Below are positions 1 to 17,868 of a DNA stretch of 22,338 bases, piece after piece. The stretch's first letter is position 1, and each line of letters starts with the position of its first letter. The stretch comes from a virus. The translations under genes and the position numbers were made by a program. The notes under the pieces were generated by a model, which saw only the letters and a list, made by a program, of their open reading frames with translations, was not told where the DNA came from and ran no database searches. The DNA lies in the IMG/VR virus record IMGVR_UViG_3300031673_005607, positions 1-22,338 of that record. The stretch is one strand, 5' to 3'.

Positions 1-385
1 ACATAGCATCTTTCTTAACTTGGTGGATATTACCCTCCTTATTAGCATAAAATCTAACCAGCCCCTCTAAAACTGCATGTACTTTAGTTCCTCCCTCACG
101 AAATATAATGTTATCAGGAAGTTCATGCGCCTCTTTACTCTTCTTACCATATCGTTTTTCAAACACTTTCTTAGGAATATCAGATACACGCTTATGAATT
201 TCAACACCCATAAAAGTATATCTTGCATTCTCTCCCTTAGGCTTAATTAGATTTTCATCAATAAACTTAAGGGCTGCCACAAGATCGGCCTGAGTTTTAA
301 TAGTCGTTGGATCTATTAACGCTCCACGGTGCTTGACAATATCTGCAAGCTGTTCTTTGGTCTTATTTGTTACTGCACAACTCAT
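1..385 (-). CDS. Possible PD-(D/E)XK-family nuclease, N-terminal 128 residues (3' end beyond window)
   Basis: The frame opens at ATG 385-383 and runs off the left edge, so only the first 128 residues are seen. The start overlaps the TGA stop of the giant upstream gene in an ATGA arrangement, which suggests translational coupling; a GGA lies four bases before the ATG and may be a weak ribosome-binding site. The visible part has a short aromatic/charged stretch (RYTFMGVEIHKRV, about residues 56-68) and then GTKVHAVLE at residues 99-107. A G-x-x-x-H-x-x-x-E helix of this kind is typical of the first conserved motif of RecB/Cas4-like PD-(D/E)XK nucleases, and crAss-like phages do encode such nucleases. 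The catalytic D...ExK residues would lie outside the window, so the family call is an inference from one motif. The gene itself is well supported by its coupled start and uninterrupted frame. Confidence 0.5.
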   Translation of the reverse strand, partial: MSCAVTNKTKEQLADIVKHRGALIDPTTIKTQADLVAALKFIDENLIKPKGENARYTFMGVEIHKRVSDIPKKVFEKRYGKKSKEAHELPDNIIFREGGTKVHAVLEGLVRFYANKEGNIHQVKKDAM

Positions 386-3300
386 ATTCCACACATTTGT
401 TCTAGTTCTCCTATAGAAAGGGCATCCACAAAAGCTGTCCTTTCAGATACATTCATATAATCTAATGCTGGATAATACTTTTCAAAATTAGTTATAATTT
501 CGTTTTTAGACCCTACCCCAGCATCTTCCTTATCAAATTCTTTAAAGTTATTTTCTGCAGTTATTTCCTTACTAACCTCTTCAATTTTATTAACATTGCG
601 TTCAGGATTCTGTATAATAACTTTAGCTAGTTCTTTACCTTGTTTTGGTGACATAGAAACATTTTGAGTACCAAAAGCACTTCCAGCCTGCTTAAGGAAT
701 TCTTCTGCCTGAGAAGTACTTCTAAAGTACCTATATTTAACATTCCCTATTTGCCTATCAGCAAACAAACTATTCCAGTTCATAGAATCAAGAGCATATA
801 AACTAGTATCAGTACCAAGTTCTTCAGCCTTACGAGTTAAACCCTCTAGTTCTAAGTTCATAATATTATAAGCACTTCTTTTAAAAACATCCTGAAGTCC
901 AAATGCCTTACGAACATAAGTCCATAAAGCTTTCCACCAGTTACTAACCTGTCCCTGCTGATTTTCAGAGAGTGCAGGAGTATGTACTACATCTGTTCTG
1001 TTAAGTTGTACCATATGCTGTGCTATTAGTTGCCCAACAGCTTCTTCTTTAAACTGCTCTTCAGTAGTATAGAGATCAGCATATTTTGTCTTAACAGTAT
1101 TATAGATATCATAGTTGGTAATCTTATTCATCATAGACTTCTTTAGAGGGTGTGTATCAGGAAGCAGTGCTACATATACATGAGCAGCTTCTTCTGGCAG
1201 ATGATGTATTGCTAACCTACCATCAACAGCTTGTACAGTTCTCTGAGCTATATTAGCCATAGCTACCGCCTTAGGAACTTCTTTACCAAACTTATCATAG
1301 ATTTTTTCCACAGACTGTAATTCAAACCCAACCGCTTTAAAGAATTCTTCAACCTTATCTCTAAGTTCTTTAGTTTCTCTTATGGTTCTCTTTTGATCAA
1401 AAGTTACTCTCTCTCCTGGTGCTTGAAAGTATAAATTTTCTAGTTCTTGGGCTAAACTCTCTCTAACAGAATCAGGTATATCTTCACGATTTAGTTCAGA
1501 TAAAACCTCTTTCATCCGGTCTACTTCTTCAATACCAAACATTTGTTTATCCACCATAGAAGCAAGAGCTTGCTCTACTGCTTCCGGCCTGTCCTCAGTA
1601 ATTCTATCATATTCTGAAATAGGTCCCGCCTTAAACTGAGGAGCCTTATCGTCCATTATATTAAGTCTGCCTAAATGATCATGATTGGGATTATACATAC
1701 TTCTAAATTCAGATCTAGAAATATCATCAGCCATAACAGGATAATATTCTTTAAACTTAAAAGAATTTCCCATCTTAGGAATGGCTGTAAACATTATCTT
1801 ACCAGTTCTAGTATTTAAACCTTTCTTAAATAATACTGTAAAGAATTGATTGTCCTTCACATAAGTTCTAGTATAGTATTGATTGTCTTCAGACTTTTCT
1901 CTATCAGAATATGGAGCCCAAGAGCTCTTATACTTAGTCCAAGAAGTAACCTTACGTCTACTAGGAACTATATCAGAATTATTCCAGTTATTACGATACA
2001 TCTGCTCTTCAAAAGTCTTCATTAATTCTTGCTGTAGTTTAACAGGATAATTAGAGAATTCTTCTAGAGCCTTGCTAGCTACTTCACTATAAGCAGCATT
2101 AGGAGCATACTTAAGATATGCAATAGGAGAGTTATTTACTCCTGATTGATATAATGCGCCACGAATAAGCTTCCTAGCAAATGCCTGAACGCCTTTATCA
2201 GGATGTTCTAATAAGTCTATCCATGCAGAAGTAAACGAGTTCTGAGCGTATAAATCAGCCTTCTTATCGAAGGTAGTTACATAATCTTGTGGTGAAGTTC
2301 TTTTAGTAGATCTGTTATATTCAGCTATAACAGGCTCAATTTCATTAAGAAGTTCATTATTAATAAGAGGTTTAATGGCTAATAATTGTTTAGCAGTACT
2401 AGTCTCTGAAAATAAAGTATCTTCATAATCATTGTGTACCTCATCGTAGCTACGTCCAGTAGTTTCAATTAAGAATGTTATAAAATCACTTTCTATGGTC
2501 CTTAAAGCAACAGCACGTTTATTGGCCCCCCATATCTTTTTAGTAAATGGTTTTACAAACCTTTCATAGAAAAATGAGTTTACTTCCGGGTACTTCTTGG
2601 TGATGAACGCCCAAGAATACATTTTTCTGGTATCATCTCTAACAGTGTTAAATGTACTAAGTAATGGATTAGATTTCATTAGGGCCTGTATATCCTCAGG
2701 ATCAAAGAATCCATTATCCATAAGTTCTTCTTGTATAGCAATCTTAGATTCCATGGCACTAATGCTGGGCTCTAAATTAGAATCTCCATTACTTATAGTG
2801 TTGAGTTTACTTAACTGATTAGCGAAGAACTCATACATTAAGAAATTATCCAAAACTTGAATTTGCTCTTTATTAGAAAGCTTACCCTTTAACGTTGCCT
2901 TACTTAGAGGAACATAATCATATTCATTAAGTTTTCTTTCAAGTTCAGCTTCAGCTTTGGTCCTCTCAGTAGTGCCCTCAGGAGCTTCAAAATATGCTTT
3001 ATAGGAAGCAGCCAAGGTCTGCTCATATGTATCAGGAACACCTTGAATACTAATAGATCCTAACTTATTTAATAAAGCACTCACTCTATCATCATCAAAT
3101 CCTGGATTTATTTCTTTACTGGTTCTCCAAGAAAGGCTTTTAGACTTCTTTTGTATAGCAAGATAATCTAGTATGATATCCTGAGTCATAAAATGAGCTA
3201 ATGTTTCTGCTCCTACACCTTCATTTCTACCAAATCTATTTAAAAAGGCCCATATACCAAAAGCATCAGTGCCAGTATTCAAGTAAAATACCCGTGGATC

Positions 3301-6300
3301 TTTAGCAACATCAAGAAATGATGTCATAAATTCAGATAAGTTCTGAGATATCTTTCTACCATCAGAGTCTTCTAAGTGTCCGCTAACGTATTCAACAAAA
3401 GGACTATCTTCTTTAGATATTGTTTGCCCCTCAAAGAATAATTTTACTAACTTACTTTTGATTGCAACGGGGGTTTGTTGATGTGTTGCGTTAGATTTAT
3501 TATGTATAGCAGCTAGCCCAATAACAGCCTTACCTCCCCAGAACTCAGCGGCCCTCTGGAAGTTATACCACATTTGAGTTGCCTTACTCCAGTTTTGAGT
3601 ACTATTAGCTTGTTCTAAGTTAGTTTGCTTTCTTTTGACAATAATATCATCTGCTAGTTTTTTAATATACTTATCATCATTAGGAGTAAGTAAATCATTA
3701 AATCTTCTAGGATCAAGTAGGGTAGTAAAGGCTATATCATTAAGTTTATCTTCATTATTATCTTTATATATAAGTTTACCACCTTCTATCTTCATATTCT
3801 TCAGGTAGGTAGTCATCTTATCAATGTCAAAGTCAGAACCTGCTTTAACAGTAACTTCGTGAGGCATTAAAATTTTACTTCCCATATAAGCAGGTAAGAA
3901 CTGCACTATATTCATAGCTTCCATAGAGTTCAGTCCCTGTACAGGAATACGTACACCAGAAATATTTAATGCTTTATCAATATCTCCATAAATACTACGT
4001 AATCTAGACCAGTTTCTCTCTTTAATAAGGCCGTTAAGTAAATCTAATCCACCTTTTTCTTCTACAAGTCTTGTCCATTCCTTAGGAAGTGGTACAGCTA
4101 CTTGCATAGCTACGGTTTCATTCTCATTTCTCCTATAGAAATTAAGATCATCACCAAAGTATAAGTAAGAAGACTCCTGAATAAGGAGTTCTCCATTAGT
4201 CTCACGATGAATAAGTTTATTTCTAACCATAGAAAGCAAGACCTCTTCAATTTTATTCTTGTTGACAAGAATATCAAATACTTTAAGTTTAGTTTTAATA
4301 ACCTCTTTAATACCATCAATAGCATTATAGGGCATAGCTCTATTCCAGAATGCTTTCTCTAAAAGATTTCCAAACCTTTCAGCATTTTCTTCAGTTAATT
4401 CATATACACCCTCAGAAGTTTTAGTAAGTCCTGAGTCAGAGATTAGGGTCTGAAAATCATTCTGAGCTATTTCCTTTATAAGATTATAATACTCATCGTA
4501 TAAATCAGATTCAATAACCATATCTCCTAATTTAAACATATCCAAGAATTCCAGGCGTTCTCTCTGGGTAGATCTAGTAACACTACCTTTAGGATCTTCA
4601 GCTATATTAAGTTGAATACCAAACTCATCATAACTCATTTCTTGTATAGCAGTAGTTGCTTCATTAACAAGTTGTGGTTTACCTTCTGAATCTAATAATT
4701 GATTAGTTTGCCCTTCATGTAACAAATGAGTTACTTTATCAGCAGTTACAAATCCAAAAGCACCTACGCCCTCTTGTAACATAGATAGATGGTGCTTCAA
4801 CATATCATCATTTAGAAGGCTCGGAAATATAGGAGCCATTGATAGCTTATAAAACTGAGTAGCATTTAAATCAGATACATTAGCTATATGCCCAAATGAT
4901 TGTGGCTTAAGTGGTGGTAATGGAGTCATTTCTTCTTGAGATATAACTTTACCAGCATACATAGGGCTACTAGGAATCTGTCCATTAGTATGATCATAAA
5001 AGATTCCACCCTCTGCAATAAATATTCCTTCATCAAGTGGGAATACCTTCAGCAATTCTGGATTATTTAGAACCTTAATAGCCAACTTCTGCATTTCATA
5101 CTGGTAAGTTTTTTCATTACCCTCAAACCAACTACCATCACGTAGCATAATCCCACGATATTCATCTAAGGTAGCCCATACCTGAGCATCTACACCGTTA
5201 GCTTTAGCATACTTACTAGATACATTTTTAATTAGATCTTGATCTACTTTATTAATAGACTTTGTAATATCAGCGTATACAATCTTACGCATAGTCTTAC
5301 TGTGTGGTCTTCTATCAAATCTTTTATATCGTTCATTTATTTGATCAATATACCATTGATCATTTATTAATTTTTGTCGAGTTGAAGCAGCCCCTGTAGT
5401 TCTCTTATGGAAGTTATCTACATTACTGTACATAGCAAGATCACCAAAAAATATCTTTAGTTGCTCTTGATTTCCTACCCAAGAATTATAAGACGCAACT
5501 CTAGCAAGCTGTCTCATCTCTTGAGCAGTTATTTCTCCTCGTACTATATTTATACCTGCATCAGCCACTAAAGAAGTGTCAAGCCCTGGTATAATATATC
5601 CAATAACATTACCAGAATCATCTTTTTTTGGAATAATAACTCCACTTTCAGTTAAAGATTCAATATTTAAATCAATGTTCTGTTTATTATATTTACTAAT
5701 AATCTTGTCTAATAGTGCTTTATTCTCTGAAATATAATTATCAGATAATTCCTCTAATTCTTCATTACTAAGTTTTATATCTGGCTCAACATTATCAGAT
5801 ATAAAATCGTTAAGACTAGTAAGAGTGCCTTTAAATCCTTTAGTGAATGCTTCATCAAAAAGATAATCAAAAGATCTTAATCCTTGGGCATTAGTACTAT
5901 AGTTAGCCAAGTTACTTCCTACTTTATTAACTAATAGTGCAAAACTAGTAGCTAATTCATCTTTAAGATAATTATAAGAATCGGATAAGAATCTACCATC
6001 AGTAATACCATAATTAGTTGCATCCATTTTAAAGGCATACTCAAGCTTTCTATCAGCAGCTCTAAGCATGGGTATAGTATTGTCTAGAATACTATTAAAT
6101 AGCATTGCTTTGTAGTCTGTATAAGTAAGTTTAGAAGTATCAACACCAGAAGTATTATTTTTAGCACCTCTAAGTAAAGTCATTTGTAATTTACGGCCCT
6201 CTCTTATACGCTTAAGCCACAGTGACTTTGCTCCAAACAAATTATCAAACAGATACTGTGAGGAAGAATTGGTTTCTCCTGTCTCAGCAACTTCATTAAG

Positions 6301-9300: not shown

Positions 9301-12300
9301 TATCTTAAAACTAAGAAACTGAATATCTTTATCTTCTTTACCAATAGCCTGCATTACCTCTTGCTTATCAGCATTCTTATAGTTCTTTGCTCCTGGAGCA
9401 ATAGAATCTATATTAAAAAATCTAGAAGTACTTTTAAGTTCTTCACGAACTTTAGCAAATCCTTCTGCAGACTTTTCTAAAGTGGCTTGAGCAAAGTTAT
9501 TAGCTTGTTTCTTAAGTTTCTCTGGAGCATCTTCAAGTTTACCCTGAAGTTTAGATTCTTTTAGTAATTCTTTAAGCTTGGCTTCATAGATATTTTTAAG
9601 ACTAAATCTGTCATAGTTTCTAGCAGTTTTAATATCACCAGAAAGTAATGAAGTAAAGAATATATCAGTAGCATTTTTAGCAGTAATATCTCCTTGGGCA
9701 TCAGCACTTAAGAGGTTGACAGTCATCTTACCATCAATTTCCTTACGTTCATATGCAACTACTTTAATATCTTCTTTAGCAGTTTCTACAGCTATTTCAG
9801 GAAGTTTCTGTAATTCTTCATAAGATTTAAATCCATATTCTTTTCCTGCCCAAAACTTAAGTTTAGTTCTAAGAGGATGACTTTCTTTAAAATCAGCAAC
9901 TGTACTATAACTAAAAGACTTAAGCAAGAATTTCTTCTTACCTTTGAACTTACTTTTATTACTAGTAAATGTCCAATAAGCGTAGTCTCCTACAAACCTT
10001 TGCCAACGTATCATATCATTGATATCGCTATCAGTGTAAGTATCCCCATACTTTTGAGGATTTAATAATACATCTTGATTACTTGTAGTATATAACCACG
10101 ATTTCTCATCCACAAATGGGTGCTTAACCCCTTCTTCAAATCCTTCAACTATCTTCCTCTCAGAAGAATTTAGATTTTCATAAGTATCTTCAAGAGTACC
10201 AGACTTAGCAGCCTCTTGGTCTATATTAGTAGACAGTAATCCCATAGATTCCAAATAGTTTTTATAAACTTCTTGGAACTTCTCTTTAACTTTATTTCTT
10301 TGACTATATGCTAGTTTAAGCCTATCTTTTTGAAAATCAGCATTAAATGCTTCCGAAGCAAGAGCAGCTATAGTATCCTCTGTTTCACGAATTTTATTAC
10401 GTAATGCTATTATATTGTCTAAAACACCGTCTATCTCATTAAATTCATCAGTAAGTCCATCAGATGCATGAAGCGCTGCAGCAATGGCAGATGCTTCAGT
10501 AAGAGCTTTTTCTGAATCACCCATCTCAGGATTATTTCTAATGAAAGCAATTCTATCAGATATACCTAACAGCCTAGCAGCCGTTGTATTATATCCTCTC
10601 ATAAGAGTACGAAGCTTCTTTAAATAATTATCAGCAATGTTTAGTGCAGAACTAGAGGCATCTATTGTAGCATTAGTTTGATCTATCTGTTCTTTAATAA
10701 GATCTATAGTGGTATTAAGAATGTTTCCCATTCTTTCATCAGAAGTACTAACAAGGACCTGCTCATTTTCTTCCTGAAGTTGTTCCATTCTTACAACTCT
10801 ATTATCTCTGGCCTCTTCTAGTCGTAGAATAGTATTTCTGGTGTACTCTATTTCTTGCTGAATTTGATCAGCATTTAGATACATTTGAGTAATACGACTG
10901 CCCCTACCGCGTAATACTTTAATAGATTCTACTCTAGTAGAACCTTTACGAGTTAGTTTAGTACCATATTTCTTTAGACTTTCAAGCTCTTTTTGTTGTA
11001 ACTTTTCTTGTCTTTCATACAATTCTTGTATATAATCAATACCTTTAGTAATACGGCCCTGCAATCTTAAAACACTATTTTGATAAAAATCTATTGCTTC
11101 TTTTAAAGCGTCTACTCTACTCTGTAAGTGTCTATCTTTAATTACATCGTCTACTGATTTCTTAACATCAATCTTTTCAATCTCGTATTGTTCATCTCTG
11201 GTATATCCAAAGGTATTATCAGCGTTAATAAAAGCAGTTCTTCCATCAGTATCTTTAACGATAAGATTTCCTTGTTGGGTATCAGCTCTACCAGGAACAA
11301 TACTTACAGTAGCTTTCTGAATATTACCTTCTTTATCTTTATAACTAACCTCAAGTTCTGAAGAATGTACAGCATCAAACTCCTCAGCTCCTACCTTAAC
11401 AGTCTCATGTTGGGTATGAATATCATATAGTCCTTGTAACTTAGGATCAAGTCCAGCAAGAGATTCATTCTTCTTAACATTACTCTTAGAATCTTCAAGA
11501 TCTTTGTCAGCCTGTTGCTTCTTTTGAATTAATTCAAAATAACCTTTTTGAAGAATAGTTTTGTTGTATAAATCTTTCTCACGAATCTTAGATTCTTTAA
11601 GACTTTTCTCATGAACTTCAAAATCTTCTATGGCCTTATTAATAGTATCAATATCTCCAGCAGAGAGTTTATCTTTCTGCTCCTTAAGAGATTCTTTATA
11701 TCCTTCTATAGTATCATCCGTAGAAGTAATAGGAACTTTTTGTCCGCCTTTATCATACTCACTAAGTTCTTTCTTAATGAGATTCATTCTACGAATATAA
11801 TGATCCTGACTAGCAGCCTCAGAAAATTTACTATATTTTACAGTATTACTATATTGATCAAAGATAGCTTGATCTGCTTTATCATGTTTAATATTAAAAT
11901 TAGGAGAATGTCTTTGCTCAATCTTATTAACAATTTTATTATATGTTTCAGCCTTTGTAAGTAAATCAGCTTTAATATCATTTATATCACCAGGATCAAT
12001 ACCAGTTTCTTCTTTAAAAGCAGCGGCATCTTTTTCAGCCATATGATTAATATGCTGCTTAAGTAGTTCGTATCCTCCAGGTTGTTGTAGGAAGGGCAGC
12101 ATATAATCAAAATCATCTTGCTGCTTAAGGTATTCATACATTTCTCTTTCACCTAGATGAGCAGCAGCAGCTCTTTCTGCCTTACGTTGAACCTCCCTCA
12201 TTGCATGAGATCCAGCCTCTTTAACTTTAAGGGGATCTAATTTATATCTACCATCTTCTTCAACAGGATTACCCGCCTCATCTCTTTCTACGAGATCCAT

Positions 12301-13707
12301 AAAAGTGCGGTATCTATTGAGATAGTTATTTTGAAGAAGAGAATGAAGTCCGGCAGATTCTTTACGATCTTGCATACCTATAAACTTAGCAATACCCTTA
12401 CGAGTCTTAGCTGTAGTTCCTTTAAGCATTTGCTCTTCTTGCTGTAGATCACGAACAGAACTTATAGTAGTCATACCTCCACCAAGTACAGCACCCAGGA
12501 AGATATTCTTTTGCATTTCAGTCTCAGTGATATTGTCTAAGTAAGTCTCAAGAGTGCCTAAAACACTATTAAAAATATTCTCCTGTTCTCCATCAGCAGC
12601 CTTTTCTTTAGCATATTCTGCAGAAGCATACTGCATACCTTCTTCAAAGAAACCTTCCATGCCAATACCCTTAAGAGCATTAGTAACAATTTTATTAGCT
12701 TTGAAGTATTTTGGTCTAGCAGCTACATCTGTAAGTAGTTCTCCCGTTTCTTTATTAATAAGTCTACCAAGTCCTGCTTTCTGTGCTGCTTTAGATACAT
12801 TAGTTGAAGCAGCAGCGGCCCTATTAAATCCACCAAATAGCCAACGTTGTTGTAATAAATTAGGTCCTAACAGAATTAAGAAATTAGCCTTCATGGTATT
12901 TGCAGCGGCCTCTCCAGCTTTCTGCTTATCACCCGTTTGAGACATCATATCTCTATATGATTCACCGGCCTCTGCTCCTGCCTCATAAAGAGTATTAATA
13001 GTAGCAGCAGCCATCATATCTGCTTTACTTATAGCACCTAAAGTAGCTGAAAATCCTGGTTTAACTAACTTAGGTAAGTTAGCAATGCCTTTACCAACCT
13101 TTAAGGCTTTTAAAGCTTGACCAGGAACTAACATAGATAGGAGAAATCCTATACCATCGGCCCCCTCATTGGCCCAAAATGAAGATGAAAATATATTTGC
13201 CATTAGGCCTCCATCTTGTACAGATTTAGGTGTAAAGACGGGCATAGCTTCTTTAACTTCTTGTTCTGCACCCTGTACAGCTTGAATCCATCCATTATCA
13301 ACCATCTGTCCAATCTCAGAAGGATCAAAACCAGTAGCAGCCCACATACCTAAACCACCAAGGTATCCAGGAATCTGTGCAACTTCGGATAATACTTTAG
13401 TTCCAATTCTAGGGATCATATATGCTAACCGTTCAGCAACAGTTTGGTCTTGAGCAAGTCTTTCATTAAGATCACCAAAGTAAGGATCATATCCTACGCC
13501 CAATCTTCTACTGGCAGACCTTGGAACATCACCTATAGGCACAGTAAGTACACTGGGCTGGACAGTGCTTGTAGTAGGATCATAAGCAAAACCCATTCCC
13601 TTCATTAAATCTGCTGAAGAGATTTGAGGAATATCTCCTGGTGTAGTAGGATCTATAACTGTATTTCTTTCCTCAATAAGCTTCTTAGTACTATCTTGTA
13701 ATGCCAT
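382..13707 (-). CDS. Giant virion RNA polymerase fusion protein with zincin domain(s), crAss-like
   Basis: This 4441-residue protein (about 500 kDa) is most likely packaged in the virion and ejected with the DNA. Visible layout: residues 1-430 are helical, with hydrophobic segments near 180-195, 274-286 and 400-417, as in ejected internal virion proteins. Residues 430-1200 are charged and coiled-coil rich. Residues 1200-1710 are mixed and unrecognised. Residues 1715-1830 form a Pro/Thr-rich linker. A zincin follows (HEAFH 1918-1922, Glu-rich helix at 1954-1962). The polymerase region is about 2040-3650, with FFGD ending at D2756, a LKPQSF segment around K2934 that may belong to the beta-like barrel, and DFDID at 3292-3296 preceded by RIPVQGLNSMEA. 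This parallels the bacterial beta' RPPV...NADFDGD region, and DFDID is the catalytic motif of the crAss-like phage phi14:2 polymerase. A degenerate zincin (EEAAH 4172-4176) lies near the C-terminus. The only cysteine is C4439. The start at ATG 13707 lies 1 bp after the upstream stop. Confidence 0.9.
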   Translation of the reverse strand: MALQDSTKKLIEERNTVIDPTTPGDIPQISSADLMKGMGFAYDPTTSTVQPSVLTVPIGDVPRSASRRLGVGYDPYFGDLNERLAQDQTVAERLAYMIPRIGTKVLSEVAQIPGYLGGLGMWAATGFDPSEIGQMVDNGWIQAVQGAEQEVKEAMPVFTPKSVQDGGLMANIFSSSFWANEGADGIGFLLSMLVPGQALKALKVGKGIANLPKLVKPGFSATLGAISKADMMAAATINTLYEAGAEAGESYRDMMSQTGDKQKAGEAAANTMKANFLILLGPNLLQQRWLFGGFNRAAAASTNVSKAAQKAGLGRLINKETGELLTDVAARPKYFKANKIVTNALKGIGMEGFFEEGMQYASAEYAKEKAADGEQENIFNSVLGTLETYLDNITETEMQKNIFLGAVLGGGMTTISSVRDLQQEEQMLKGTTAKTRKGIAKFIGMQDRKESAGLHSLLQNNYLNRYRTFMDLVERDEAGNPVEEDGRYKLDPLKVKEAGSHAMREVQRKAERAAAAHLGEREMYEYLKQQDDFDYMLPFLQQPGGYELLKQHINHMAEKDAAAFKEETGIDPGDINDIKADLLTKAETYNKIVNKIEQRHSPNFNIKHDKADQAIFDQYSNTVKYSKFSEAASQDHYIRRMNLIKKELSEYDKGGQKVPITSTDDTIEGYKESLKEQKDKLSAGDIDTINKAIEDFEVHEKSLKESKIREKDLYNKTILQKGYFELIQKKQQADKDLEDSKSNVKKNESLAGLDPKLQGLYDIHTQHETVKVGAEEFDAVHSSELEVSYKDKEGNIQKATVSIVPGRADTQQGNLIVKDTDGRTAFINADNTFGYTRDEQYEIEKIDVKKSVDDVIKDRHLQSRVDALKEAIDFYQNSVLRLQGRITKGIDYIQELYERQEKLQQKELESLKKYGTKLTRKGSTRVESIKVLRGRGSRITQMYLNADQIQQEIEYTRNTILRLEEARDNRVVRMEQLQEENEQVLVSTSDERMGNILNTTIDLIKEQIDQTNATIDASSSALNIADNYLKKLRTLMRGYNTTAARLLGISDRIAFIRNNPEMGDSEKALTEASAIAAALHASDGLTDEFNEIDGVLDNIIALRNKIRETEDTIAALASEAFNADFQKDRLKLAYSQRNKVKEKFQEVYKNYLESMGLLSTNIDQEAAKSGTLEDTYENLNSSERKIVEGFEEGVKHPFVDEKSWLYTTSNQDVLLNPQKYGDTYTDSDINDMIRWQRFVGDYAYWTFTSNKSKFKGKKKFLLKSFSYSTVADFKESHPLRTKLKFWAGKEYGFKSYEELQKLPEIAVETAKEDIKVVAYERKEIDGKMTVNLLSADAQGDITAKNATDIFFTSLLSGDIKTARNYDRFSLKNIYEAKLKELLKESKLQGKLEDAPEKLKKQANNFAQATLEKSAEGFAKVREELKSTSRFFNIDSIAPGAKNYKNADKQEVMQAIGKEDKDIQFLSFKIYDKDDATVKLSGTKFSPRAGYGYVKYRSRLEIVTPKTLDSTNSVDDIVNLFRYLANDPENKTQIETYIKIILNMTNTVEESKLKYRMAFVRPSGLKGLRSGEFTKILFGDQGEVTKEQLTNNEGLAEFKEFLKDKYWNFSFKALKAENFTEFKVDNSLKQTETVWETKDGGYKGFLFSSKGTPKGTIYITPRASTEVGSTKAPQYMNQAIRLVHAPTQQEIEGRLQAQPTNIVHAKILMGATNAPVTPQAGGVLASLNKPTTTTTETPPPPSEPPPASGGILASLNKQNTQVENTPTEDTWKPTNPAEVIHGASEAQNNTSDQVLKQDDPAPPTNRFVDAEAYWAWLKENNPTKYDYYLKDASESAAKTRAFRAYQKQGNDNNIYRLVNDISRYKAMDISAARQWLEQKFPGLPVEMVAGLIDGRAWGQFYKGSKVLLSSLAAVGTEYHEAFHVVSKIFLSSEESNSLYVETRKVLNKPKATDAEIEEILAEEFREYMMADGNYKFGSTVDIRKSTFQKILDYLLQIINGMFGTSFNKPSQALTLFEDINTKEFNLVDRKSWSEETLNRIGELSERESTAYVKDMNFRFFQKLFGPTEIISEDGIFRLQKDKQFQSQLYDALKQDYKDELAEDLMAEGRIPEVEDVPVDFNSAAASLLRNWESAVKSHRDYVFQYDLDIREFIEDDERISDSPSFFESNVVSMNTVTPHAIRLTIAGLPSVTRNGEGTTDLTWSDFDTNSTAAYNKIMNILKNSLSNIDTFWGMVDELQRLRLSGYPEIDHLLNRLGVPLDNNDIKDVSDSQLTLLVQLYKAFSNNKNIPKIFVFENDGRKSVINAVDIQDTKVLKNSWMNTAKAEAGQPNSLIKKTKDGKYIVDKPSYIQNAINMIKATSEQEQMNIAYAILKATGLNLDKYIYNIDNLSILYDYVNETAKQLKAEKEDVTLQDLFNPKVIESQGETKALLEYVATVIPNDADLMFINQEGRSEYSVTLNSHISNTVTKLNEVAETGETNSSSQYLFDNLFGAKSLWLKRIREGRKLQMTLLRGAKNNTSGVDTSKLTYTDYKAMLFNSILDNTIPMLRAADRKLEYAFKMDATNYGITDGRFLSDSYNYLKDELATSFALLVNKVGSNLANYSTNAQGLRSFDYLFDEAFTKGFKGTLTSLNDFISDNVEPDIKLSNEELEELSDNYISENKALLDKIISKYNKQNIDLNIESLTESGVIIPKKDDSGNVIGYIIPGLDTSLVADAGINIVRGEITAQEMRQLARVASYNSWVGNQEQLKIFFGDLAMYSNVDNFHKRTTGAASTRQKLINDQWYIDQINERYKRFDRRPHSKTMRKIVYADITKSINKVDQDLIKNVSSKYAKANGVDAQVWATLDEYRGIMLRDGSWFEGNEKTYQYEMQKLAIKVLNNPELLKVFPLDEGIFIAEGGIFYDHTNGQIPSSPMYAGKVISQEEMTPLPPLKPQSFGHIANVSDLNATQFYKLSMAPIFPSLLNDDMLKHHLSMLQEGVGAFGFVTADKVTHLLHEGQTNQLLDSEGKPQLVNEATTAIQEMSYDEFGIQLNIAEDPKGSVTRSTQRERLEFLDMFKLGDMVIESDLYDEYYNLIKEIAQNDFQTLISDSGLTKTSEGVYELTEENAERFGNLLEKAFWNRAMPYNAIDGIKEVIKTKLKVFDILVNKNKIEEVLLSMVRNKLIHRETNGELLIQESSYLYFGDDLNFYRRNENETVAMQVAVPLPKEWTRLVEEKGGLDLLNGLIKERNWSRLRSIYGDIDKALNISGVRIPVQGLNSMEAMNIVQFLPAYMGSKILMPHEVTVKAGSDFDIDKMTTYLKNMKIEGGKLIYKDNNEDKLNDIAFTTLLDPRRFNDLLTPNDDKYIKKLADDIIVKRKQTNLEQANSTQNWSKATQMWYNFQRAAEFWGGKAVIGLAAIHNKSNATHQQTPVAIKSKLVKLFFEGQTISKEDSPFVEYVSGHLEDSDGRKISQNLSEFMTSFLDVAKDPRVFYLNTGTDAFGIWAFLNRFGRNEGVGAETLAHFMTQDIILDYLAIQKKSKSLSWRTSKEINPGFDDDRVSALLNKLGSISIQGVPDTYEQTLAASYKAYFEAPEGTTERTKAEAELERKLNEYDYVPLSKATLKGKLSNKEQIQVLDNFLMYEFFANQLSKLNTISNGDSNLEPSISAMESKIAIQEELMDNGFFDPEDIQALMKSNPLLSTFNTVRDDTRKMYSWAFITKKYPEVNSFFYERFVKPFTKKIWGANKRAVALRTIESDFITFLIETTGRSYDEVHNDYEDTLFSETSTAKQLLAIKPLINNELLNEIEPVIAEYNRSTKRTSPQDYVTTFDKKADLYAQNSFTSAWIDLLEHPDKGVQAFARKLIRGALYQSGVNNSPIAYLKYAPNAAYSEVASKALEEFSNYPVKLQQELMKTFEEQMYRNNWNNSDIVPSRRKVTSWTKYKSSWAPYSDREKSEDNQYYTRTYVKDNQFFTVLFKKGLNTRTGKIMFTAIPKMGNSFKFKEYYPVMADDISRSEFRSMYNPNHDHLGRLNIMDDKAPQFKAGPISEYDRITEDRPEAVEQALASMVDKQMFGIEEVDRMKEVLSELNREDIPDSVRESLAQELENLYFQAPGERVTFDQKRTIRETKELRDKVEEFFKAVGFELQSVEKIYDKFGKEVPKAVAMANIAQRTVQAVDGRLAIHHLPEEAAHVYVALLPDTHPLKKSMMNKITNYDIYNTVKTKYADLYTTEEQFKEEAVGQLIAQHMVQLNRTDVVHTPALSENQQGQVSNWWKALWTYVRKAFGLQDVFKRSAYNIMNLELEGLTRKAEELGTDTSLYALDSMNWNSLFADRQIGNVKYRYFRSTSQAEEFLKQAGSAFGTQNVSMSPKQGKELAKVIIQNPERNVNKIEEVSKEITAENNFKEFDKEDAGVGSKNEIITNFEKYYPALDYMNVSERTAFVDALSIGELEQMCGI
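1180..1194 (-). other. Degenerate zincin-like motif EEAAH (residues 4172-4176)
   Basis: The segment HHLPEEAAHVYVALL resembles a zincin active-site helix, but Glu4172 stands where the first histidine of HExxH should be. A KEEAVGQLIAQH helix (E4221, E4222) follows about 45 residues after H4176, where a gluzincin would carry its third ligand. A WWKALW...F...A helix pair follows. I infer a zincin fold that is inactive or has altered metal binding. H4168 and H4169, just upstream, are possible substitute ligands. Confidence 0.5.
3820..3834 (-). other. RNA polymerase catalytic DFDID motif (residues 3292-3296)
   Basis: These codons encode D-F-D-I-D, within GSDFDIDKM. The three aspartates (D3292, D3294, D3296) match the DxDxD triad that binds the catalytic magnesium in the double-psi beta-barrel of two-barrel RNA polymerases. 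Cellular beta' has NADFDGDQM; the Gly-to-Ile change is the form known for crAss-like virion polymerases. The flanking order, with an RxPV segment and then SMEA about 30 residues before the triad, also follows beta'. Confidence 0.9.
7942..7956 (-). other. Zincin metallopeptidase motif HEAFH (residues 1918-1922)
   Basis: The codons give H1918-E1919-A-F-H1922, a complete HExxH zinc-binding and catalytic motif. It is preceded by a GRAWGQFYKGSKVLLSS stretch. The Glu-rich helix EEILAEEF (about 1956-1963), some 35-40 residues downstream, could supply the third zinc ligand as in gluzincins. The domain sits between the Pro/Thr linker and the polymerase region. Zincin domains are known in crAss-like giant proteins; the substrate here is unknown and could be the host envelope, a host factor or the protein itself. 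Confidence 0.8.
8440..8550 (-). repeat. Duplicated GG[VI]LASLNK motif flanking a Pro/Thr-rich linker
   Basis: GGVLASLNK (residues 1720-1728, bases 8550-8524) and GGILASLNK (residues 1748-1756, bases 8466-8440) are repeated 84 bp apart in direct orientation. Between them lie a run of five Thr and a Pro-rich stretch (ETPPPPSEPPPASG). The two copies differ at several synonymous positions, so the peptide has been kept while the DNA drifted. They mark the boundary between the N-terminal half of the giant protein and the zincin-polymerase half. Confidence 0.8.
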
Positions 13708-13708
13708 A

Positions 13709-15274
13709 TTATTCAGATTTTGCTAAAATTCTAGCTATTTTATTGTACTCTTCTGGATTATTTTCACGCATATATTCTGTATAATTGTAAAAATCTACTC
13801 CCTTGCTTTGATCTAAATCTTCATAAAATTTAGCCATAGCCATAGTTAATAGAAAATTAGGAGTTCTTACAATGGCTTCTAATGGTTTTCCATCCTCTGT
13901 AGTTCCAGAAACTAATAACGACAATCCTAACATCGGATGTATATTCATTCCACCAATCGCACGATCTTTTTTAATCTTATCTAAATTCTTTTGAGAGGCT
14001 TTATCAATACCTTCCCATTGAGCAACAGTCTCGTCAAATTCTGCATCAATCTGATCTGAAATTTTATTAATAGAAGTAATATGTTTACCAGAAGCAAGTC
14101 CTATCTTATCAATATCGTCCATTACTAGGCCTTCTTTTTCAATAGTTTCTATAAATGTACTTTGAATTTCTGCAAGATCTTGTTCTGCAGTATTTCTACT
14201 AAGATCTATATCTTCTCTGGGCTGTATAGCCCCAGACCTAGCAGCATGTCCAATATTACCAAACTTACCTATACGTTGTTTACTAGCAGAATTAACTTGC
14301 TTTTGCAAATCTGCCATACTTTCATATCCTTTAGCTACTGCCAATGCATTAGATAGAGGTGCAAAATAACCACTATGTAAGTCAACCATTTCTTTGGGAG
14401 CCTCTACAACTCTTCTAGCTGTCATCATATTACTAGGAACTCCAGTAGGAGCATCATACGCAGGATTTCCAACAGCTTGTCGCTCTGTTCTACCAATAGC
14501 ACTATATGCACCTGTCCTAATAGCATCCGTAACAGCCTGTTGATCCTTAATACCTGCCAGTTCAGGCATAGAATTATAAATTTCTTCAACCATCATCTGC
14601 CCCTCTTTAGTTCCAAGAAAATCATCAACTTCTTCAGGAGTACCAAAACCTCTTTGATCCATATGCTGTATTAATCTACCACCAGCAGTATCTTGCCAAG
14701 CTCCAGGCTTTCTAATAGCATTAGCCATGGACTTAAATACATTAACGCTGGCTGCAGTTATATCTTGTTTGTTAATTGGGGTATATTCAAATGTAGCACC
14801 CTCTTTCCAATCATTAAGTCCTACATCTGTAGGATCTCCTACTGATAAGAAGTTAGCACCAAGCCTACGTTTATCTTGTTGGTAAGTTTTAACGGCTTCT
14901 ACCTTCTGTTTATTAAAAGCATAGAAAGGATCTCCCCTTTCTTGGCCCACCATAATAGCAAGTTCATTAGCAGCAGCACTGTAGTCTCCGCCATATTTAT
15001 CTTGTACAAGTTTATTAACTTTGCCCTTGAAGGTTCCAACACGCCCCTCAAGTTCACCTCTATCATAAGTTTCAATATCACCCATTCTAGCTAACTCTTG
15101 GGCTACCCCTTGATTAGCGGCATCAAACCTCTGCTGTCTACCAGCTACGGCCTGGGTTAGTCCGGCCTCTGATTCTGGCCTATACATTGAATATATAGGA
15201 GGTCCTCCTGATTGTCCAGTAGGAACTGAATTAGCCATTCTATTTGGGCTTATCCCCTGATAATATCTTGCCAT
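13709..15274 (-). CDS. Virion-associated protein of unknown function, probable cargo/ejection protein
   Basis: This 521-residue protein (about 58 kDa) has no motif that I can tie to a known activity. It looks largely helical and soluble. Residues 1-45 are Gly/Pro/Ser-rich and probably flexible. Residues 48-190 are charged and helical, with D/E-rich repeats (RGELEGRV, NELAIMVGQERGD). The C-terminal 110 residues hold a QWEGIDKASQKNLDKIKKD helix and an IHPMLGLSLLVSG segment. There is no signal peptide, no obvious membrane span and no cysteine. The ATG at 15274 lies 2 bp after the upstream stop (TAA 15279-15277), and its own TAA is followed after 1 bp by the start of the giant polymerase gene, so the three are probably translated in a coupled way. 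No Shine-Dalgarno sequence is seen. Its place between a cargo-like gene and the virion polymerase gene suggests a packaged structural protein; that role is inferred from position only. Confidence 0.85.
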   Translation of the reverse strand: MARYYQGISPNRMANSVPTGQSGGPPIYSMYRPESEAGLTQAVAGRQQRFDAANQGVAQELARMGDIETYDRGELEGRVGTFKGKVNKLVQDKYGGDYSAAANELAIMVGQERGDPFYAFNKQKVEAVKTYQQDKRRLGANFLSVGDPTDVGLNDWKEGATFEYTPINKQDITAASVNVFKSMANAIRKPGAWQDTAGGRLIQHMDQRGFGTPEEVDDFLGTKEGQMMVEEIYNSMPELAGIKDQQAVTDAIRTGAYSAIGRTERQAVGNPAYDAPTGVPSNMMTARRVVEAPKEMVDLHSGYFAPLSNALAVAKGYESMADLQKQVNSASKQRIGKFGNIGHAARSGAIQPREDIDLSRNTAEQDLAEIQSTFIETIEKEGLVMDDIDKIGLASGKHITSINKISDQIDAEFDETVAQWEGIDKASQKNLDKIKKDRAIGGMNIHPMLGLSLLVSGTTEDGKPLEAIVRTPNFLLTMAMAKFYEDLDQSKGVDFYNYTEYMRENNPEEYNKIARILAKSE

Positions 15275-15276
15275 AA

Positions 15277-17868
15277 TTAATCTACTTTATTACCTTTAAA
15301 TGAAGTCTTTCCTTTTTGTCCCAATATCCATTGTAATGGAGTAGGTTGTGCAAATTGAGCATTAGGAGCTCCTAACTGTCTAGTTTGTTGATCATTTCCA
15401 TAGGATACATTATCACCAAGATAACTAGCACCTATCTTCAACCAGTTAGATAGTGGATCAGCATTACGAAGTTGTTCCCTATATTGATTACGTAGCATTG
15501 TATTATATGCACCCTCTTGGCCTCTCATCTGAGCATTAGATAATCTGGCTTGTTGTGTAGCCTGCATATTAGCCATATTAGTTTGTTGTCTTAATTGAGC
15601 ATTAGTAGTAGCTTCATTTTGTATACTCTGACCAATCTGTTGGCCTGCTGCTCTCTGGATACCCAATCTTGAAGCTCCAATATTAGCAGCGGCTTGTCCA
15701 CCACTAAGTCCTAAGTTACGGGCCGTTCTAGCAGCAACTGCAGATCCCGTAGTAGCTTGTTCTCTAGCCATTGCTCTCTCAGGAGCAAAGCTTACTTGTT
15801 CAGCAGCAGCTCTAGCTGGCACAACATCTGGACCCATATCAACCTCTTCAACAGGATTTTTCTTAAGTCTATTATAATCTCTAGTAGCAGCTAGTCCAGA
15901 AAGAATATGTCCTGCAGGACTTAGTAAGCTTGCAAGATTAAATCCTTCCCCACCCATTGATTTATTTGGGTCCATAAATGTATTACTAGTGTCTTGAGTT
16001 CCAAGTGGACCCTGTCCAGCATTATAGTTACCATAAGCACTAGTAACAGCTCCTGGCTGTCCTTGTATAGGACTCATTGGTTTTCCATAAGGAATTGGTT
16101 GTGCCTGGGTTGAAGCCTGTCCTCCCTCTGGTAATCCTAGTCTACTTCCTCCAGCAATAAATGGTGAGCCCTGTACTGAATAAGGAAGTGTTAGTGGAGA
16201 TGCTTGGATACCAACAGAAGATCCTCCATAGGCCCCACTAGATGTAATAGGCCCCTGATCTTGTCCTTGATTTTGTTGCCAAGGAAATGAAAATCTCCTA
16301 TCTTGATACTGCTCTTGTTCCCATGGGTACATAAAAGTACCATCACCATATTCAGGAAGATCACCGCCCTCTTCCATCATACGTCCACCACGTTTATATT
16401 TTTTTACTGATTCTTGCTCTTCTGCAATTGAATCTAATCGTAGATTCAGTGCTTCTTTAGCCATCTTATCAGCACCATTAAGGTCTTTGCCTAAAGCCTT
16501 CTGGAAGTTCTTTTGTACTTTAGCAACCTGTTTAGCATGTCCAGACTTCTTAGAATATATAAATACTCCTTCGCCCGTGTGTCTAGCTATCTCTCCACCC
16601 TCTACTAGGGCTACAGGATTCTGCTTAGTGACTCTAATAGGATTGCCTGTGTGGTCTACAGGAATTCCTCTCTGGGCACTATCAGCATGAGAAGGACCAT
16701 TATAACTAAGAAGTCCTCCATTAGCAACTACAGGTGCATATACAGGAGCCTGTGGCATAGCATTTAATTTATTTTGTACCATAGTGTCTCTACGTTCTTG
16801 TTCATTAAAGTCAGCACCCTGAGCTTTTTGATCTTCTAATAGTTTTGCCTGATCTGCGGCTCGTGCTTCTTCAGCATTTTTAGCAAGTTTTTCTTGACGA
16901 TGCCCAAATATTCCTTTAATAAGTCCTATTCCTCCACCAATAATTGCTCCTATTGGAGAGAGTACACCAGCTCCGGCTAAAGCACCAGTACCAGCACCTA
17001 TAGCCGTTTGTGCTAAAATACCTCCAAGCCCTTCTTCAGGCAACTGTTGTACATCAGATAACCCAGCAGATGCTTCAGCGGGATTTAATTGTATTTGTCC
17101 TGTTATAGTCCCACTCATTCCAGAAGTTAATGGACCCCCTTCTACTGGATTGTTTCTTGCTTGCCTTGCTTCAATTCTCTCCCTAATACTTTCAACGCCT
17201 GACATACCTGGGCCTATCATACCTGATGATTCAAACATTTGAAGCATTCCTCCCATATCTTTTTGAGGTAAATAATATTTTATTTTAGGTTTATTTTTAT
17301 TCATAGTTGTTTGTGTTAAAGTACCTCCAGACCTCTTCTCTTCTAAGTATTGATAGGGCCCCATACCAATAGATATTTCACCTTTACCCGACTGATCAGA
17401 TCTAAGTCTAGGCATAATCATACTTCTAATTCCAAATTTTTGTTTTGTTACTACATCTTGATCTTTTCCAACTGTCCCTGTGGGAGCATATCTATTAAGA
17501 AGATTCCAATAATCGGTTGAATCGGCCCCAAGAGATTTACTAATTTGATCTGGCTGAATAGCTAAATCTCCATATTGGTTAATGGCATCCATGCCTCTAT
17601 CTGAGGTATTTAATATAGTCATAGGGTCTTCAAGGCCCTGTGCTTTATTAAGTATATCTCCTACAGGTACATTAGGGTAAGCCTTAGCAAATTCACCAGT
17701 AAGTTTGCCCTGATAATCTCTTAATCTAGTAAGATCATCAAACCTTTCACCTATACCATGTTTATAGGTAGACTCTCTCATTTGACTATACTTAGGATAT
17801 AGTCTTGCCATTTTAGCATATAAGGACTCTTTAGTGTCCTTCTTCTTATTTTTCTTAGGGTCAGGCAT
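15277..17868 (-). CDS. Gly/Gln/Ala-rich virion cargo-type protein with glycine-zipper segment
   Basis: This 863-residue protein (about 93 kDa) begins with a Lys-rich tail (MPDPKKNKKKDTK). Residues about 283-318 form a glycine-zipper hydrophobic stretch (IGAGTGALAGAGV, then GAIIGGGIGLIKGIFG) that could insert into or cross a membrane. A charged helix follows (318-360), then a module with SYNGPSHADSAQRGIPVD and VEGGE (residues 422-426), a pattern I associate with structural proteins of Bacteroidetes gut phages. Residues 500-660 are Gly/Pro/Gln-rich low complexity, and 680-810 are Ala/Gln/Asn-rich helix. There is no cysteine. In the crAss-like phage crAss001 a cargo protein is encoded just after the muzzle gene, so position and composition suggest a packaged protein ejected with the DNA; this is inference. 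ATG 17866-17868 is the first start after a 54-bp gap holding a promoter-like sequence, and the Lys-rich N-terminus supports it. Confidence 0.8.
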   Translation of the reverse strand: MPDPKKNKKKDTKESLYAKMARLYPKYSQMRESTYKHGIGERFDDLTRLRDYQGKLTGEFAKAYPNVPVGDILNKAQGLEDPMTILNTSDRGMDAINQYGDLAIQPDQISKSLGADSTDYWNLLNRYAPTGTVGKDQDVVTKQKFGIRSMIMPRLRSDQSGKGEISIGMGPYQYLEEKRSGGTLTQTTMNKNKPKIKYYLPQKDMGGMLQMFESSGMIGPGMSGVESIRERIEARQARNNPVEGGPLTSGMSGTITGQIQLNPAEASAGLSDVQQLPEEGLGGILAQTAIGAGTGALAGAGVLSPIGAIIGGGIGLIKGIFGHRQEKLAKNAEEARAADQAKLLEDQKAQGADFNEQERRDTMVQNKLNAMPQAPVYAPVVANGGLLSYNGPSHADSAQRGIPVDHTGNPIRVTKQNPVALVEGGEIARHTGEGVFIYSKKSGHAKQVAKVQKNFQKALGKDLNGADKMAKEALNLRLDSIAEEQESVKKYKRGGRMMEEGGDLPEYGDGTFMYPWEQEQYQDRRFSFPWQQNQGQDQGPITSSGAYGGSSVGIQASPLTLPYSVQGSPFIAGGSRLGLPEGGQASTQAQPIPYGKPMSPIQGQPGAVTSAYGNYNAGQGPLGTQDTSNTFMDPNKSMGGEGFNLASLLSPAGHILSGLAATRDYNRLKKNPVEEVDMGPDVVPARAAAEQVSFAPERAMAREQATTGSAVAARTARNLGLSGGQAAANIGASRLGIQRAAGQQIGQSIQNEATTNAQLRQQTNMANMQATQQARLSNAQMRGQEGAYNTMLRNQYREQLRNADPLSNWLKIGASYLGDNVSYGNDQQTRQLGAPNAQFAQPTPLQWILGQKGKTSFKGNKVD

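Follow-up and report, generated by a model that had tools for sequence, protein, structure and literature searches.

For the most abundant human-gut phages it is still to be explained how several giant proteins leave a virion in order through a tail narrower than themselves, and the question is raised here by a locus in which three consecutive genes encode 5825 residues with a single cysteine. The window (the whole stretch of 22,338 nt analyzed) represents 22.3 kb from an uncultured crAss-like phage and belongs to the Crassvirales virion cargo/RNAP cluster. Its minus strand encodes, in order, the muzzle protein, homologues of cargo proteins 1 and 2, a polymerase fusion and the start of a gp49 homologue. 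Iterative profiles were seeded with phiCrAss001 gp45, gp46, gp47, gp49 and gp50 and with phi14:2 gp65, gp66 and gp67. The muzzle (tail gatekeeper) protein (17923..22338, minus strand, 1471 aa) matched PF25731 crAss_MUZ with an E-value of 3.7e-129 and the PHROG class of virion structural proteins; its ORF opens with an ATG at the contig end, and the true start possibly lies beyond. Next comes the homologue of cargo protein 1 of the phiCrAss001 gp45 family (15277..17868, minus strand, 863 aa; gp45 iterative profile, E 5e-12), which is syntenic in sitting between the muzzle and cargo 2. The homologue of cargo protein 2 of the gp46 family (13709..15274, minus strand, 521 aa) was found by profile search at 3.7e-36 and scored 27.1 bits against Pfam PF25712 crAss_CARGO2, at the cut-off of 27. 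The window thus has the crass-fold muzzle upstream of the cargo genes and both cargo homologues by which the cluster is recognized. No relatives were found in viral contigs with the muzzle or cargo 2 of the window, each alone, as query, nor were any found for cargo 2 by tblastn against phage records. Proteins of this cluster are virion cargo in phiCrAss001 by mass spectrometry (PMC10172136), and their phi14:2 counterparts have likewise been noted in virions in published work.

The third gene (382..13707, minus strand) encodes a 4441-residue virion RNA polymerase fusion with gp47-like and gp50-like (catalytic) parts, which matched the gp50 profile at 3.2e-196 and the profile seeded with phi14:2 gp67 at 5.7e-199. 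Its gp47-like part, matched by phi14:2 gp67, covers about residues 1-2016 (7660..13707, minus strand), and the hmmsearch domain bounds place the gp50-like catalytic part at residues 2017-4003 (1699..7659, minus strand). The catalytic motif DFDID (residues 3292-3296; 3820..3834, minus strand) aligned with phi14:2 gp66 and phiCrAss001 gp50, with D3292, F3293, D3294 and D3296 invariant among the three proteins; the surrounding SDFDIDK (residues 3291-3297), which lines up with gp66, conforms to DFDxD. The stop codon of the fusion gene overlaps the start of the next gene in an ATGA (382..385, minus strand), from which the first 128 residues of the gp49 (RNAP-associated) homologue are read up to the contig edge (1..385, minus strand). 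In phmmer this fragment was collinear from residue 1 with the gp49 of loci L109 (E 3e-23), L107 (3e-17) and L108 (2e-16). An alignment of 11 gp49 sequences was too diverse to scan.

The initial annotation had counted no cysteine in the 863- and 521-residue proteins, one in the fusion at residue 4439, five in the muzzle and one within the first three residues of the next gene, and recounting the ORFs bore out every figure. The muzzle, which is not cargo and serves as the internal contrast, has its cysteines at residues 207, 281, 567, 751 and 997, and in the fusion neither the gp47-like part, the gp50 junction included, nor the catalytic part contains any. At the rate of the muzzle, 20 cysteines would be expected in the 5825 residues (P(<=1)=5e-8), at that of the other ORFs in related loci 38 (P 8e-16), and at that of the non-cargo proteins in 13 Crassvirales genomes 69 (P 1e-28); the Fisher comparison of the window's cargo with the single muzzle protein only gave p=0.0017. 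Avoidance of a DNA word as the cause was rejected, since out-of-frame TGY is plentiful in the polymerase gene, where TGT/TGC occurs once in frame, as against 58 and 260 occurrences in the two remaining sense frames. A general compositional bias was likewise rejected, since strong depletion among the 20 residues is limited to cysteine, with a log2(cargo/other) of −2.91 across the 13 genomes against −0.57 for histidine, the second most depleted residue. In those 13 genomes, which represent two families, cysteine makes up 0.06-0.6% of the cargo and 0.7-1.4% of the remaining proteins, so that non-ejected proteins are not equally poor and the cargo of relatives lies 2- to 20-fold below the other proteins of the same genomes, both as the initial annotation had supposed. 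Homologues of the muzzle adjoining the cargo have ordinary levels, mostly 0.5-1.2%, and the interior of the polymerase proteins holds 0.04-0.08%. The upper end of the cargo range is formed by cr124 (0.6%), and L084, L090, L105 and cr124 each have 10-28 interior cysteines in one protein; they retain the terminal cysteines described below, except at the C-end of gp50 in L084 and at the gp50 start of cr124, which lies at the record edge. Cysteine is absent from the ends of cargo 1 and 2, with rare exceptions only. An unexplained C-x7-C occurs in Steigviridae cargo 1.

The lone cysteine of the fusion, encoded by a TGT codon at 391..393 (minus strand), is the third residue from the C-terminus (..EQMCGI) and occupies an invariant alignment column, and the next protein starts with MSC, the codon for its Cys3 being a TGT at 377..379 (minus strand). 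To see where cysteines stand in this protein series, which in phiCrAss001 names is gp47, gp50 and gp49, the first or last 10 aa of all complete termini were tallied in 13 genomes and 111 IMG/VR loci, the tally covering 125 sources (97 clusters at 60% identity). All 94 gp49 homologues (72/72 clusters) had a cysteine at the N-end and none of 92 had one at the C-end. Cysteine was found at the C-end of gp50 in 110/116 cases and at the N-end of unfused gp50 in 57/61, and at the C-end of gp47 in 27/28 as against 0/23 at its N-end; the background in other ORFs was 6-12%. L084, in which the C-terminal cysteine of gp50 stands 26 residues from the end, apart, the exceptions were gene pieces seemingly broken by introns or frameshifts or cut at the record end, and from their sequences these look like breaks that are no real protein ends. 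In the cluster alignments the cysteine was conserved in 72/72 at gp49-N, 85/85 at gp50-C, 40/40 at gp50-N and 20/20 at gp47-C, while no other aligned residue, the initiator Met aside, exceeded about 35% at the first three; the gp47-C flanks were up to 55% conserved (11/20 Glu), and the tails share some glutamates. Chance or inheritance was rejected as the source of the terminal cysteine, because it stays while its flanks are unalignable. By these alignments the thiol floats freely on a tail of variable sequence. The window follows the same rule, with no cysteine at the N-end of the fusion or at the gp47|gp50 junction, Cys4439 near the C-end and Cys3 in gp49, whose C-end lies beyond the contig. 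Read in this way, Cys4439 and Cys3 are one terminal pair of this kind, so that the near-total absence of cysteine first noticed here stands as a count, and the single residue left is conserved and paired rather than a leftover.

Fusions and splits of the series were then compared with the positions of the cysteines. None of 47 gp47-gp50 fusions, the window included, had a cysteine at its N-terminus or around the point of fusion. The C-end of the upstream gene and the N-end of gp50 agreed in 69/71 cases (28 both with cysteine, 41 both without, 2 discordant), and the C-end of gp50 and the N-end of the next gene in 96/99, all 96 with cysteine at both and three discordant. A gp50-gp49 fusion in L154 has no cysteine in 4206 aa. 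Some lineages have their gp47|gp50 break 800-1500 residues farther upstream, with the cysteine pair standing at this new position. Extra links occur between gp50 and gp49, of 169-204 aa in L120, L168, L180, L185 and L186 and of 700 aa in L139, and each has a cysteine at both ends and none inside; those of L168 and L139 share homology with the N-terminal region of an intact gp49, and the intact gp49 homologues of L135 and L160 have their own N-terminal cysteine only. The gene that follows the fusion in L155 begins 568 nt farther downstream, with no cysteine at its start as called. A prediction for a third family, Intestiviridae, was set down before inspection and agreed with 6/6 genomes: gp50 and gp49 are fused, the surviving pair is gp47|gp50 only, the gp47-like protein has a cysteine at its last or last-but-one residue, and the fusion starts with MSC and has no cysteine at its end. 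The fusion is annotated as starting 32 residues before the MSC in crAss002 and 14 residues before it in cr110. The fused junction in this family differs from that of the window, and here too it is the break still left that bears the pair. The best tree has five fusion/split transitions, two of them forced by well-supported branches, and independent pairs were too few for significance. Given these few events, the argument draws its weight from conservation over 72-97 divergent clusters, from the small inserted links and from the Intestiviridae prediction. The depletion, the position rule and its tracking of fusions and splits are direct observations, and the pattern that they form, as read from sequences, is that of a protein chain whose interior is free of cysteine and whose every internal joint bears a thiol.

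Because meeting ends have one thiol each, non-meeting ends have none and fusion removes the need, an interchain disulfide is the simplest account. We therefore consider that the virion RNAP proteins of crAss-like phages are probably links of one linear chain, most likely joined by disulfides, threaded in order and freed by reduction. The broader statement, that the Crassvirales polymerase is delivered as a reducible covalent string with terminal disulfides from N to C, in which gene fusion and terminal disulfide would be interchangeable means of making a single threadable chain, is also one that we favor on balance. The disulfide, the direction of threading and the reduction in the host are what we infer from the pattern. 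The order would be gp47, gp50, gp49, probably passing N to C with gp47 first. The two cysteines of a pair would stand on flexible tails, one at the C-terminus of a link and the other at the N-terminus of the link that follows, and would most likely be bonded in the virion as an interchain disulfide. Joined in this way, the links would act like a single polypeptide of some 5,500-7,500 residues, with storage at a fixed 1:1:1 ratio and ordered passage through the narrow tail, until reduction of the bonds in the host cytoplasm freed the subunits. The near cysteine-free interior would allow end-to-end bonds only, because side-to-side or internal bonds, as loops or side branches, would block passage. 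In the window the chain would consist of two links, the 4441-residue gp47-gp50 fusion with Cys4439 and the gp49 homologue with Cys3. The annotated thioredoxin gene of p-crAssphage is a possible candidate for a helper in reduction.

Several observations bear on this model. In phiCrAss001 virions gp47, gp49 and gp50 are present and disulfides are resolved in the tail, whose constrictions of <50 A are expected to require partial unfolding (PMC10172136). AlphaFold modeled the C-terminal 341 residues of the window's fusion with low confidence (pLDDT 54), and the model suggests no more than that its last 8 residues are flexible. The paired tails showed no co-variation in charge (r −0.08, p 0.24), and charge complementarity was rejected. 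Counting against easy disulfide oxidation, phages assemble in a reducing cytoplasm and many of the hosts are anaerobes, and the lineages with 10-28 interior cysteines indicate that the exclusivity of terminal cysteines is not strict. A chain of the three proteins is predicted to weigh near 693 kDa (262+277+154 kDa). For phiCrAss001 the linked peptides were computed, predicting ICGANTLYEL=CAIIPQVR for gp50-C to gp49-N (M 1992.017, [M+3H]3+ 665.013) and CNS=CITTNSTIEELAAK for gp47-C to gp50-N (M 1812.823, 3+ 605.282).

The initial annotation had offered another reading, in which proteins threaded through the tail are selected to be thiol-free since oxidation would cross-link or misfold them; as a full explanation, it would have any leftover cysteine tolerated at harmless termini. 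This agrees with the strong interior depletion in Crassvirales, with the reasoning published for N4 and with the ejected proteins counted, which are without cysteine in N4 (gp50, 51 and 52; 0/4294 aa), T7 (gp15 and 16; 0/2065 aa, compared with 12 in the non-ejected RNA polymerase) and P22 (gp7, 16 and 20; 0/1309 aa). However, a thiol is kept at the termini facing the next protein in nearly every complete case, and tolerance predicts neither a cysteine in 94/94 at one end of gp49 and 0/92 at the other, nor pairing between neighbors, loss upon fusion and gain upon splitting; cargo 1 and 2 also have free ends and yet, rare exceptions aside, no cysteine there. As a full explanation thiol avoidance is already contradicted, and we regard it as very unlikely; in part the interpretation is supported. 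As a general signature of ejected proteins, depletion holds for N4, P22, T7 and Crassvirales but is not universal, given phiKZ (16 cysteines in 2614 aa) and the cr124 cargo at 0.6%. It is also very unlikely that the terminal cysteines make homodimers (gp47-gp47, gp50-gp50, gp49-gp49) with no mixed chain: every protein does have a cysteine at an end and several copies of each are packed, but homodimers do not account for the cysteine-bearing ends being those that fusions join, for gp47-N and gp49-C always lacking one, or for middle links with cysteines at both ends arising wherever the chain is cut.

That signals in the DNA or RNA where genes meet, such as start/stop overlap and translational coupling, set the termini with cysteine as a by-product has next to no probability, even though the ATGA overlap of the window recurs in many relatives. 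In phiCrAss001-like genomes gp47 is encoded on the opposite strand, some 10 kb away from where gp50 begins, and both ends keep their cysteine, so that shared DNA signals are no explanation, and for the gp47|gp50 pair of these phages they are already refuted. Cysteines are also kept across the 77-170 bp gaps of Intestiviridae, and codons and flanks vary. The alternative to be taken most seriously, although we still consider it unlikely, is end-to-end joining by other chemistry or for another purpose, through a metal or third-protein bridge or as a redox latch for assembly or packaging and not ejection. The pattern settles the partners and not the bond, and a packaging role is compatible with equal copy numbers of the three proteins (6 copies each, for example). 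Against such chemistries, a usual zinc site calls for more than the one cysteine present on each side, with no conserved His, Asp or second Cys adjoining, and native chemical ligation needs a cysteine at residue 1-2, whereas here it is mostly at 3-6.

If true, the disulfide-linked string would answer order, stoichiometry and release together, and it yields residue-level predictions testable on reduced and non-reduced virion data as gathered for phiCrAss001. The terminal-cysteine rule would provide a sequence test for membership and order within one ejected chain, and the string, if confirmed, would set a precedent in nature for joining proteins end to end, in a reversible way, so that they can be translocated. 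The idea of oxidation and threading is already published for N4-like virion polymerases, whose lack of cysteine and its tail/periplasm explanation were printed in 2009-2014 citing Kazmierczak 2002 (PMC2784036, PMC3715699, PMC3915230) and whose cysteine absence served as a recognition mark in 2023 (PMC10747016); the new finding is the terminal-cysteine positions. A literature search, outside which lay most subscription papers including that on the phi14:2 polymerase structure, found no report of terminal cysteine pairs in crAss-like phages. Neither cysteine depletion nor such pairs are described in the published accounts of Crassvirales virion RNAP and cargo that were examined, and Bayfield et al. 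reported phiCrAss001 disulfides in tail and portal-vertex proteins only (PMC10172136).

Compared with known systems, the window's fusion resembles the cysteine-free virion RNAP of N4-like phages (Schitoviridae; 3500 residues) in being giant, without interior cysteine and presumably virion-packaged and ejected. The N4-like enzyme, however, is one polypeptide of T7-type fold with no terminal cysteine and no partner, whereas the window has the conserved Cys4439 and, with no Pfam polymerase match found in it, a motif of the DFDID double-psi-barrel type and homology to gp66/gp50. The podovirus ejection proteins (T7 gp14/15/16, P22 gp7/16/20) are nearly or wholly cysteine-free, like the window's cargo, and are ejected through the tail, as that cargo presumably is, but they have no paired terminal cysteines; T7 gp14 and gp6.7 have a single one at residue 2, with no known partner. 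In Thermus phage P23-45 the tape-measure-fused virion polymerase gp96 (5002 aa) is a long tail-threaded chain with no cysteine (PMC10770324), whose linkage is by gene fusion, unlike the separate links of Crassvirales. A control with the virion and non-virion polymerases of P23-45 was uninformative, as the whole genome is cysteine-poor (0.33%) and the non-virion polymerase gp64 has none. The phiKZ virion polymerase (gp80, gp149, gp178 and gp180) consists of several separately encoded subunits, as in Crassvirales, and, delivered by a contractile tail, is not depleted and has no terminal pairs; at 0.61% against 1.13% in its pair it is only mildly poorer, which indicates that depletion is not universal. 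The window is itself a member of the group that includes phiCrAss001 gp45-gp50 and phi14:2 gp65-gp67, with which it shares the order of muzzle, cargo 1, cargo 2, polymerase fusion and gp49.

In some lineages, namely those of cr124 (W12) and of the loci L084, L090, L105, and L106, the depletion of interior cysteines in the virion RNA polymerase proteins is relaxed and the terminal cysteines are nonetheless retained; the interior cysteines in these proteins number 12–28. An interrupted gene for the catalytic polymerase protein was found in four loci (L079, L081, L082, and L102), with the break falling inside the catalytic DFDxD motif in three of them, and the broken ends of the gene carry no terminal cysteine.

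Around the terminal cysteines themselves, the start of the L168 gp50 (MSLCPNLSDPIVSKQFNE) resembles the gp49 starts of W04, L105, and L106, and the pattern common to these N-terminal tags is C-P-N-L-S-x-P-x-V..E-F-x-E. Such likeness in sequence between tags on different links of the proposed gp47–gp50–gp49 chain looks as though a joint module had been copied from link to link. In the polymerase fusion of the window and its close relatives L107–L110, the C-terminal cysteine is preceded by a short motif, NF[DE]xYYPxY..LSxxEKxAF....GE[IL]ExxC, which is predicted, with low confidence, to form a small helical unit following a disordered linker. Homologues of crAss002 gp_33 (L197 9242) and cr110 gp40 (L199 12542) start with MSC; the annotated start codons of these two genes are probably placed too far upstream, by 32 codons in the former and 14 in the latter.

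Among the upstream cargo proteins, cargo protein 1 is free of cysteine in several Steigviridae except for a C-x7-C pair that it retains. In phiCrAss001 gp45 (L001 41987–44515) the pair is formed by Cys 390 and 398, which lie between the part of the protein bound to the tail and the part bound to the portal; the homologues in W07, W08, W10, and W14 likewise carry it, and DAC15 cargo protein 1 has it twice. Within the Crassvirales genomes compared, this pair was not found in cargo protein 1 of families other than Steigviridae. A lone C-terminal cysteine with no evident partner occurs in a few upstream cargo proteins, those of p-crAssphage (L198 30140–32713), L112 (a 444-aa ORF), and L085 (cargo 2, 494 aa).

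In phage T7 (L188), the ejected proteins gp6.7 (18864–19130) and gp14 (27728–28318) each contain exactly one cysteine, at residue 2 in both, whereas the ejected gp15 and gp16 contain none.
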